Shown: positions 53,893 through 57,705 of the stretch, piece after piece
Layout: each line of letters begins with the position of its first letter
Position numbering within the stretch: position 1 is the first letter of the stretch
Source: Diplocarpon mali
Lineage: Eukaryota > Ascomycota > Leotiomycetes > Helotiales > Drepanopezizaceae
DNA: 64,000 nucleotides
Assembly: GCA_024741835.1 (NCBI GenBank)
Contig: JAENRP010000005.1
Location: 75,444 to 139,443 of the forward strand
Direction of reading: 5' to 3'
Program-made: the position numbers and the translations under genes
The notes under the pieces: generated by a model
What the model was told of the DNA's origin: nothing
Seen by the model: the letters and a program-made list of their open reading frames with translations, nothing else
The model's database searches: none

Positions 53893-54074
53893 GACGTACT
53901 ATGACCGAGTCTCAGCGCGTGGGAAAAGCTGTGGTGACGGGACGAGAGTTCTTTCCAGATTGATGTTTTTGGGTCGTTCGGCAAATCTGTGGTGAAGGGT
54001 GGACAAGAATTTAGCTGCTTATTATAACAAGATAAGTCGGCATTCAGATCAATCTTCACAAACTCCAGTGACGC

Positions 54075-54126
54075 GTAAGTCTGCGTTGCTGCCCTTGATT
54101 GCAATCAAAGGCTAATTTTGTGCTAG
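54075..54126 (+). other. Spliceosomal-type intron inside tRNA D arm (positions 13/14)
   Basis: A 52-nt insert with 5' GTAAGT (54075-54080), GCTAAT (54111-54116) and 3' TAG (54124-54126). These are the same donor, branch and acceptor signals and the same length as the mRNA introns of neighbouring genes. Base identity at the ends fixes the junction uniquely if the canonical D arm is to be restored. The interior contains the palindrome TTGATTGCAATCAA (54095-54108). Confidence 0.75.
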
Positions 54127-54150
54127 AGTGGTTAGCGTGTCGTTCTTATA

Positions 54151-54193
54151 TTATTCGGATATTCTGATTAATATGATCTACTCATCAGAAGAG
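54151..54193 (+). other. Canonical tRNA intron after position 37
   Basis: A 43-nt insert one base 3' of the anticodon TAT, the standard position for nuclear tRNA introns removed by the tRNA splicing endonuclease. It contains TAAT/ATAT strings able to pair with the anticodon region. Confidence 0.75.
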
Positions 54194-54251
54194 ATGCGAA
54201 AGTCGTGGGTTCGACACCCACCTGGAGTAAATGAATCTCTGGATTGCAAAG

Positions 54252-54265
54252 TTTTGGTGTTTTTT
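54252..54265 (+). terminator. Pol III T-run terminator
   Basis: TTTT at 54252-54255 and TTTTTT at 54260-54265, 23-36 bases after the tRNA 3' end. Confidence 0.75.
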
Positions 54266-54813: not shown

Positions 54814-57705
54814 TTATAGGCTCTCCTCTCGCGACTCCCATGGAACACAATCAGGGACACCCATTGCCTTGGCCGTTTCTATCGAGCGCTCGGTGAAAGT
54901 TCCACTACTTTCATCTGCGGTTTGAATAGCCGCAAAGCGTAAGATTTGTGTGAGCAACAATATCGGCTCCTCGGATTTTGCCTCACCTTCCAACTCACTG
55001 AACTCGATCCCTTGTTTTCGCAATGCCAGAACTCGCTCCTCCTTGAACCCTTGCAATATTTTTACCACATTTGCTATCCTCGCTTTCGAAATCGAGGAGT
55101 CCATATCTAACCGTCGTGGCATGTAGCCATCCTCATCGACGAGACCCAGACGGGCGAGCTGCAATACGATAACTCGAGCAGTTTCTGGTTCCGGATAAGC
55201 ACCGAAATGCTTTCGCAATGCACGCAAGGCAACTGCAGTTCCGGACAGATCCTGGGCCATGCTGAAACTCTGAACGATCACTTGATATAAAGGAGGAGGG
55301 AAGCCTCCGTTATTCATTCTCGGTAACTTGGCCATCATATCTGCGAAGAGTCCCCTACATTTCAAGTGACGCTCATGTATATCATCCTTAGAGAAAGCTC
55401 TGACGGGATCAACTTCTCTCTTGAGATTGTGCCAGAGGATCAGGTATGTCCAGAAATCGGGGGGGATACCCTGTTCTTCTGTAGCCACCCGGTATGTCTC
55501 TACCACCTCATCATTGCGGTGTTCATTGTTACTATTCCAGAGTATCTCGTTCATGAAGTGTGTAGATGGCTTTATACGTGATCTCTCGAAAGCATTCATG
55601 AGATCAGTCATGCGGACTAGCTTTTGTGACTTCCTGTAGTGGCTTATGAGAATACAAAATGTTTCAATTGTCGCTGGTGGTATACTTTGAAATGTTTTGT
55701 CGGAGGACATTGACTCGGTGGAAATCAAGCGAGCAGAGGGTTCAAGACAGTCTCGCTGCTGGACGAATTCGTGTCTTTTTTGGATCATTTTCCAAGCCAT
55801 GTCTTCAGCCAAAATTGCACTTGGTGTTGTGTTTTGCCGCAACAGAGCACCAATGAGACCGTTCAGCTGTATAGGGCTAGTCGTAATCCCATGAACACTC
55901 ATCAACTGAACGACTTGGAATGCTTCCTTCAGTCTCTTATCACCGATGAGCCGCTTGATCCATTTCCCAAAGAAAAATTTATTTTTGAATTTAGCTGGGA
56001 GCTTGACCAGCGTGCTCAAGCTTGCCCAGTTAAGCTCTGCATCCGTGATAGTTAGGGATGAAAGATCACTGAGATTGTTTGTCGCATTTTTGTATAAGGT
56101 AGTGGAGTCTTCCTCTGACATGGTTGGTTGGCCTGTGAGCATCATGTCCTTGAAAGCCCCAAGTGCCAGATCTGTTTGGTCGGCAGAGAAGAACATAGAG
56201 ATGATGACATCGTAGTCATCCATCGTCATGAGAGACCCAAGGCCCGTCCTCAACCGGATATAAAGCGCCCAAGCGCGTTTAACTGATAATGGATCTTCTT
56301 GTTCAAGAAGATTGGCCCGAATCAGCGGGAGTACGATTCGAAAATCTGCTGGACTCGTATCAATCTTCATGAAACACTGTGCTTCTATAGCAGCCGTTCT
56401 GGGCATTCCATGCTGTGCAAGCATTCTGGCACCCAGCTCCAAATAATTCTTCCAAGCCTCTGGGATATCATGTGCTTCAATCCTATAATCTTCCCACATT
56501 TTGATAGCACGATCTCGATCCCCGTCAATGAAAACTGCCTCGATATAGAGCAATCGTTGGGACCAGTGCATGGCCCGACCCAATTCGACCAAGTCATCAC
56601 CCAGAATTTTCAGTCTTGCCATACGATCCAGATTTTGAAGACCTTCAACCTGGAAAATGCTCCAAAGTTTGTTCAATATCTTCCATCGATCATCGTGAGT
56701 TAATACTTCAGAAGCCAGTGCATATCGAGACAACGAATACGCTTTCCATGCTCTAAGTATAAAGTCTTTCTCGGTTTTGATTCTGGGCTCTCGTTTACGT
56801 CTGGCCTTCAGCTTCGGTGAGAAGGCAAGTCTCCTCAATAAAAAAACCAACTCCGACATGCGCAGGCGTTGAGCTGGGGGAAATCCATGGAGAGGAATCT
56901 CAAACTCCTCTCCATCTTCAGTGCCGAGTGTTCGTCGTCTCAATCCTAATTTCGTTGTATCCTCAGGGCGCCAAGTGGCTGGGGAGCGTTGGGAAGTCGT
57001 CGGAGACGTTTCTATTAACATGGTTTAGAATTCCTCTGAGCATGTGTCACGATGTGTGGTAATACCTTGTTTGTGACCTTTCAATAAGACCTCTCTAAGT
57101 CGTAGCCGATCCTCCTCTGACAAGTTTTTCAAATCATATTTCTTCAGCTCCGCCAGCTGTGCCCTGATAGAATCAGCCAGAGGGGTTGAGGCTTCCGGAC
57201 CTTGCCCAGATCTTTTGGCATGCAGTCTCTTAAGGAAGCCCCCCATTTCGTCATGCATGTCCTCCTTCAGGTCCCTGATATCTCTTTCAAGCGCCTCCAA
57301 GTCCCCTACATTATCAAGATCTTCTTCTTCAATCCGAGCTCCATCTAGGTTCTCTTCGAAGTATTTGACTGTATTTTTCGGCAATCCGCCTGGCCTGGAA
57401 GGTCCATGTTCCGCTACGTCTTTTCGCCGCTCGCGCACTTCCGCCTCCAGAGCATCCAATATTGCCGCTTCGTCAAGATCATCTTCTGAATCAAGGACCT
57501 TTCCGTCTGGTATATCTTTGATATCTCTGCCTGCAGGCTTAGGTATTTTATCTGCCCCTCGGTGTCTTGACGGTAGTGGGCCGGTCGTAAAGCTCCGTGC
57601 CTTAAATTGTGATCTTTGCCGTTGAGAAATTCGTAATTTTGTTGTACATGACCGACATACGAACCCTCGAACTTTGGAGGCCAGAACGTATTGCGGAGGA
57701 GGCAT
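54814..57705 (-). CDS. Mitochondrial PPR/TPR-like repeat protein
   Basis: Two exons (57705-57066, 57011-54814) with a 54-nt intron (GTATTA...TAG, CTAAAC branch, phase 1) give 945 residues. The start MPPPQYVLASKVRGFVCRSC, with a following basic, serine/arginine-rich stretch (QRQRSQFKARSFTTGP), looks like a mitochondrial targeting region. An acidic coiled-coil-like segment follows. The rest is alpha-helical with PPR-like repeats (for example DYDVIISMFFSADQTDLALG, ...AFKDMMLTG; PPLYQVIVQSFSMAQDLSG). Fungal proteins of this kind act in mitochondrial mRNA stability or translation, but I cannot name the ortholog (Cya5- or CIA84-like are candidates). An in-frame upstream ATG exists inside ORC3; the ATG at 57705 is preferred because it gives the targeting peptide. 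Confidence 0.8.

Follow-up and report, generated by a model that had tools for sequence, protein, structure and literature searches.

We read the 52-nt insert in the D arm of the tRNA-Ile(UAU) gene of Diplocarpon mali as a U2-type spliceosomal intron in a nuclear tRNA gene of the Pol III type, one of at least 19 such introns in this genome (probability roughly 0.88, a figure that stands for removal by the spliceosome, whichever of the two polymerases makes the transcript). Together with an ordinary intron in its anticodon loop, this insert means that the tRNA would need both splicing systems, as the preliminary description of this one gene had proposed, and that proposal is now supported by 18 more genes of the same anatomy, by exact matches to paralogues in two families, by an intron in the U6 gene and by the lack of any excess of bulge-helix-bulge folds. 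The phenomenon is genome-wide and larger than the single gene first described, which strengthens the original interpretation. Gene anatomy, splice signals, the agreement of joined exons with paralogues, the U6 intron and the retained TATA motifs can all be read from the DNA directly.

Structurally, the tRNA-Ile(UAU) gene of the window (the whole stretch of 64,000 nucleotides that was analysed, to which the coordinates refer) is laid out as follows:

54023..54027, plus strand: TATAA, a candidate TFIIIB site beginning 39 nt before the 5' end of the tRNA
54062..54074, plus strand: exon 1, tRNA positions 1-13 (acceptor 5' strand ACTCCAG, positions 8-9, D-stem 5' strand ACGC)
54075..54126, plus strand: mRNA-type GT..AG intron of 52 nt between tRNA positions 13 and 14, splitting the A box
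54075..54080, plus strand: 5' splice site GTAAGT of the D-arm intron
54111..54116, plus strand: branch-site motif GCTAAT, whose A at 54115, 11 nt from the 3' end of the intron, is the candidate branch point
54124..54126, plus strand: 3' splice site TAG of the D-arm intron
54127..54150, plus strand: exon 2 (D loop AGTGGTTA, D-stem 3' strand, anticodon-stem 5' strand, anticodon TAT, position 37)
54151..54193, plus strand: 43-nt intron at the canonical 37/38 site, of tRNA endonuclease type (ARAGORN)
54194..54229, plus strand: exon 3, tRNA positions 38-73 (contiguous T arm and B box GGTTCGACACC, acceptor 3' strand)
54252..54265, plus strand: T4 (54252-54255) and T6 (54260-54265), 23-36 nt downstream of the tRNA, candidate Pol III terminator

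The coordinates and lengths first given for this gene are correct, with three exons that sum to 73 nt around an insert of 52 nt and an anticodon-loop intron of 43 nt, and the insert does contain GTAAGT, GCTAAT and TAG. The acceptor, D and T stems of the spliced tRNA are fully paired in ARAGORN, as had been claimed; to this we add, as a correction, that the anticodon stem holds a U31.U39 mismatch and one U-G pair. When 54075-54126 is deleted, the check that had been proposed, ARAGORN calls a tRNA-Ile(UAU) with a 43-nt intron at 37/38, and when both segments (54075-54126 and 54151-54193) are deleted it calls an uninterrupted 73-nt tRNA-Ile(UAU), while no tRNA is called in the whole window, in the unspliced gene or with just the 37/38 intron deleted. 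The spliced form scores 104.2, the lowest of the 19 spliced genes and just under the minimum of the uninterrupted ones (104.4, n = 49). Once spliced, the product has the cloverleaf and the conserved bases of a nuclear tRNA (ARAGORN). Its second intron occupies the 37/38 site typical of endonuclease introns, and the insert sits away from that site, at 13/14. Features of a group I or group II self-splicing intron were not found, the insert being 52 nt long and the window matching no Rfam family at gathering score; when the unspliced gene was compared with Rfam, a single chance match resulted, far under its cut-off. In terms of the type 2 Pol III promoter, with its contiguous A box (8-19) and B box (52-62), the A box is split at 13/14 and the B box is contiguous.

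Within this gene, the ACGC of exon 1 can pair with a GCGT in the intron (54071-54086), which would place the 5' splice site in the loop of a false D arm. As a general feature, a hairpin that presents the 5' splice site was rejected (mean z -0.21, standard error 0.23, 19 genes). The idea that the intron's end restores the A box was likewise rejected as general, since the window intron, ending in TGCTAG, fits and the other three introns at 13/14, judged by eye, do not. The neighbouring protein (54814-57021, minus strand) matches Diplocarpon mali JHW43_000575 at 100% identity, D. rosae at 77% and Drepanopeziza brunnea at 51%.

Genome-wide, 68 nuclear tRNA genes, the window's included, were recognised in the 49.4-Mb assembly (676 contigs) of this helotialean ascomycete, an incomplete list in which 49 genes lack and 19 carry a GT..AG insert away from 37/38. 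A search with the RF00005 tRNA model returned at least 48 matches, with 63 of 2443 candidates scored, and further genes came from patterns of a T arm followed by a T run: the first 100 of 256 rows of one list, and two later full lists of 45 and 57 rows whose patterns demand G52-C62 and the T run. Examination of 41 pattern-derived stretches gave 20 tRNA genes, 17 stretches without an accepted tRNA and four repeats of known genes; the rows left out were mainly repeats, rows already covered and a few unlikely ones. An AT-rich, organelle-like tRNA-Lys (L026) was excluded before counting, and two genes labelled SeC(tca) by ARAGORN (L022 and L023) are Glu(UUC) and Leu(CAG) by our own reading. Restricted to the genes matched directly by the two later T-arm patterns, the set numbers 45, of which 11 are interrupted; a script recognised 39 of these 45, and the other six, with flanks too short, were assigned by matching places to the lists. 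By tRNA position, each set by hand, the inserts lie as follows:

5/6: Ser(GCU)
8/9: Lys(UUU); Gly(GCC), one copy
9/10: Ser(UGA); Gly(CCC)
12/13: His(GUG), two copies; Glu(UUC)
13/14: Ile(UAU), the window gene; Gly(GCC), three copies
15/16: Ala(AGC)
20/20a: Leu(CAG); Leu(UAG); Gln(CUG)
20a/21: Gln(CUG), another copy
46/47: elongator Met(CAU)
52/53: Tyr(GUA)

The 19 genes are interrupted at ten distinct positions, mostly in the D arm, with the A box (8-19, box limits after the cited part of PMC3978253) split by 12 of the 19 introns; in 17 genes, exon 1 measures 5-20 nt in addition to the leader. The inserts cluster toward the 5' end, 17 of 19 lying between positions 5 and 21 and, in the T-arm-pattern subset, 11 of 11 between 8 and 21.

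All 19 inserts, 48-65 nt long, begin with GT and end with AG, a count that is not an independent test for all genes because the inserts were picked by eye for GT..AG, branch motifs also being seen during the reading. Bases 3-6 are mostly AAGT (15, 15, 18 and 17 of 19), and the inserts finish in YAG (18) or AAG (one). Every insert has a CTRAY motif whose A lies 9-14 nt before the 3' end, compared with a mean of 3.25 and a maximum of nine of 19 in 2000 shuffles, for which CTRAY was accepted over the broader range of 6-40 nt from the end. For comparison, introns measure 51 nt in U6 and 51-72 nt in four cases in the window that join ORFs; these four, with branch motifs CTGAT or CTGAC, resemble the tRNA inserts in lengths and distances, but the same splice motifs were used to pick them and they are not a free sample. 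The idea that the inserts are copies of one element was rejected, the best match among the 19 introns and that of U6 being 13 nt at 92% (E 0.11).

Mechanistically, these signals bear on a different reading, in which the tRNA splicing endonuclease releases the D-arm insert by cutting outside its standard site, a route that has been put forward for the red alga Cyanidioschyzon merolae. That reading has a published analogue in the very same tRNA, the D-arm intron of C. merolae tRNA-Ile(UAU) (PMC9602550), and the window gene itself also bears an ordinary 37/38 intron. Bulge-helix-bulge introns need no GTAAGT, CTRAY or YAG, yet the 19 inserts have them, and a simple test over the 19 genes (two geometries, bulges of 1-3 nt), which carries out a check suggested in the preliminary description, found a 4-bp central helix with bulges of 1-3 nt in five of 19, against 5.08 expected from random cut pairs. 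We consider endonuclease cleavage of the insert highly improbable. In C. merolae, tRNA-Ile(UAU) has introns at 12/13, 37/38 and 53/54 (PMC9602550, PMC3978253), and those of the D and T arms are supposed to leave before the anticodon one (PMC9602550). The genes of D. mali resemble these multi-intron tRNAs in having D- or T-arm introns besides that at 37/38, in the isoacceptor and in upstream TATA-like elements (PMC9602550, PMC3978253); they differ in that the C. merolae introns are treated, in the cited parts of those papers, as bulge-helix-bulge introns for the endonuclease, whereas the inserts here bear spliceosomal signals. Another likeness is to the nucleomorph tRNA genes of cryptophytes and chlorarachniophytes, eukaryotic lineages with D- and T-arm introns (PMC4090602), of which some are extremely short; the cited portion of that review calls their splicing mechanism unknown and does not describe a GT..AG and branch-site pattern.

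The boundaries of the putative spliceosomal introns were also approached from structure alone, through a scan of single deletions of 38-110 nt in 90 regions on both strands in which tRNA structure was scored and GT..AG ignored. The GT..AG segment was among the top-tied deletions in 11 of the 19 genes; at tRNA-Ile(UAU), two single deletions tie for the top, and one of them is exactly 54075-54126. For the other eight (L043, L048, L084, L093, L097, L105, L106 and L119), a different deletion scores higher in ARAGORN, and their boundaries depend on paralogues or hand parsing. Two stretches without an accepted tRNA, L089 and L099, gave tRNA calls on some deletions other than GT..AG (best 105.1 and 102.7). 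Against paralogues, the joined exons of Ala(AGC) equal the uninterrupted L024 and L025 in 27/27 bases and those of Glu(UUC) equal the uninterrupted L022 in 26/26, followed by Ser(UGA) against other Ser genes (22/23), Lys(UUU) against Lys(CUU) genes (21/22), Leu(CAG) against L023 (25/27) and Ser(GCU) against its uninterrupted match (17/19), the remaining genes having no close uninterrupted match at hand. Copies of the same tRNA with inserts at different positions agree as well: once spliced, the exons of the Gly(GCC) genes are the same whether the insert lies at 8/9 or 13/14, and this also holds for the Gln(CUG) genes interrupted at 20/20a and 20a/21, except for differences in the acceptor stem. 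Spliced, all 19 genes are called by ARAGORN as the expected isotype; unspliced, 12 give no tRNA call and seven a lower-scoring one. In L119, ARAGORN sets the 37/38 intron differently than in L086. Median ARAGORN scores are 108.7 for the spliced interrupted genes and 111.3 for the uninterrupted ones (P 0.08).

Could the interrupted genes be pseudogenes, that is, dead insertions in spare copies? Uninterrupted paralogues do accompany Ala-AGC, Glu-UUC, Gln-CUG and Leu-CAG. Splice signals and cloverleaf are nevertheless intact in 19/19, and a TATAW motif at -60 to -20 is kept in 10/19 interrupted genes against 30/49 uninterrupted ones (background in random 60-mers 6.4% in the window and 8.5% in tRNA loci), which argues against decay. 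Nine isoacceptors were seen in interrupted form only, within the incomplete set of 68 genes (Ile-UAU, Tyr-GUA, His-GUG, elongator Met, Gly-GCC, Ser-UGA, Ser-GCU, nuclear Lys-UUU and Leu-UAG), and because that list is incomplete, uninterrupted copies of those other than Ile-UAU may exist. We take Marssonina coronaria to be the same species as Diplocarpon mali, presumably the agent of apple blotch. For M. coronaria NL1, 136 tRNA genes have been reported, and M. coronaria is described as the cause of apple blotch (PMC7864672). For Ile-UAU, genome-wide searches by mature sequence, by a D-loop/anticodon pattern and by a looser pattern for uninterrupted copies found no second gene, the intact copy on which a refuting condition of the preliminary description partly depended. 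The D-loop/anticodon pattern matched the window gene alone; the looser pattern gave 31 matches, against 36 with the pattern reversed, of which 30 loci (the window's included) yielded no tRNA in ARAGORN and the 31st lacked a D stem. The window gene fell among these matches because its intron end, TGCTAG, mimics an A box. On these grounds we judge the pseudogene reading very improbable. An assembly error, for which nothing was seen in favour, is of practically negligible probability, given 19 different inserts that share splice signals, plus that of U6, across many contigs.

With regard to decoding, AUA codons are used in the long ORFs of the window (for example, 14 of 736 in the neighbouring gene). 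The preliminary claim that UAU is the only usual decoder of AUA may be too strong, given three copies of tRNA-Ile(AAU). A tRNA-Ile(AAU) with inosine-34 could in principle read AUA.

Among other small RNA genes, that of U6 (L103:1501-1653, G000:C67:136807-136959) holds by our reading a 51-nt intron, GTGAGT..GCTAATGATATCCAG, between GCATGGC and CCCTGC, just downstream of the ACAGAGA region and with the signals GTGAGT..GCTAAT..CAG. The U6 covariance model matches across this intron with an insertion, its boundaries a few bases off from our reading. No insert was present in any of the 20 above-cut-off matches to 5S rRNA, all 119-120 nt (47 of 1960 candidates scored). The 5S rRNA genes are dispersed, with at least 20 above the cut-off on 20 contigs in that same set. 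In fission yeast, too, the U6 gene, short and transcribed by Pol III, has an mRNA-type intron; the hosts described here differ in being tRNAs, in the shortness of exon 1 noted above for 17/19 genes and in often having a second, endonuclease-type intron. Lichen-forming ascomycetes (Pezizomycotina) carry spliceosomal introns in rDNA, that is, in non-coding genes outside the Pol II set; their hosts are Pol I rRNA genes, whereas those of D. mali are tRNAs.

Which polymerase would make these precursors is a question within the spliceosomal reading. At tRNA-Ile(UAU), the TATA-like element upstream and the T runs downstream suggest Pol III, and yeast tRNA genes are reported to undergo TATA-driven transcription without TFIIIC in vitro (PMC3978253). 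A T4 run lies within 40 nt downstream of 13 of the 19 interrupted genes and in three more by the T-arm/T-run pattern, counts to be read in light of the 11 genes found by demanding a downstream T run; L048, L086 and L119 have no T4 run within 40 nt downstream. A version of our main reading, counted within its probability, has the same spliceosomal intron removed from Pol II transcripts, the tRNA being freed from a capped and spliced precursor by RNase P and tRNase Z. Most spliceosomal introns leave Pol II transcripts, the A box is split in the 12 genes counted above, and a T4 run inside the window intron (54116-54119) could stop Pol III and calls for caution about Pol III at this gene. Against Pol II stand the upstream TATAW motif, about equally frequent in interrupted and uninterrupted genes, the downstream T4 runs (with the preselection just given) and the U6 gene, which is made by Pol III in S. 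pombe (PMC8917221) and carries the same intron type here. We therefore hold Pol II transcription to be unlikely. Depletion of T runs from the introns was rejected as a mark of Pol III: TTTT occurs in 1/19 tRNA introns against a shuffle mean of 2.4 (P 0.27), and the comparison with motif-picked ORF introns (4/11, P 0.047; under stricter ORF thresholds 2/6, P 0.13, and 2/4, P 0.07) is weak. In Ala(AGC) (L024, L025 and L048) and His (L086 and L119), whether these genes are interrupted or not, the gene's own B box is followed 35-51 nt downstream by another T-arm-like one, GGTTCRANTCC, possibly an extragenic B box.

From these features we infer that splicing takes place, and the acting polymerase and the order of the two steps as well. 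The precursor would probably be transcribed by Pol III from the upstream TATA element and the contiguous B box, terminating at the T run. The D-arm intron would then leave through the spliceosome's usual two-step lariat reaction, after which the D arm and cloverleaf could fold, and the tRNA endonuclease and ligase would then excise the 37/38 intron. On this basis, we think it probable that the spliceosome acts here as an essential tRNA-processing enzyme, in that about a quarter of tRNA genes (the 11 of 45 matched by the T-arm patterns) and the only tRNA-Ile(UAU) found would depend on the excision of a U2-type intron from their Pol III transcripts, in many cases alongside a second step of the endonuclease type, such that splicing and decoding capacity would be tied together.

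Conceptually, tRNA splicing has been described as independent of the spliceosome (PMC13149111). The preliminary description knew of no spliceosomal intron in a nuclear tRNA, and among the matches listed in searches of the open-licence PubMed Central literature none reports one. Many tRNA genes with spliceosomal introns would break the taught division in which tRNA splicing belongs to an endonuclease and a ligase, both proteins, and not to the spliceosome. Several matters become testable, namely the action of the spliceosome on Pol III transcripts whose first exon is very short, the reading of a split A box, whether the two splicing systems work in a fixed order and the manner of intron gain. 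tRNA finders overlook or misread the interrupted genes, and for some Helotiales tRNAscan-SE is reported to give no more than about 50 tRNA genes (PMC11678538), a low count that interrupted genes escaping such finders could partly explain. The phenomenon may thus be common in related fungi that seem poor in tRNA genes, and in Diplocarpon mali itself the gene sequences suggest that some of the tRNAs are made with the help of the mRNA-splicing machinery.
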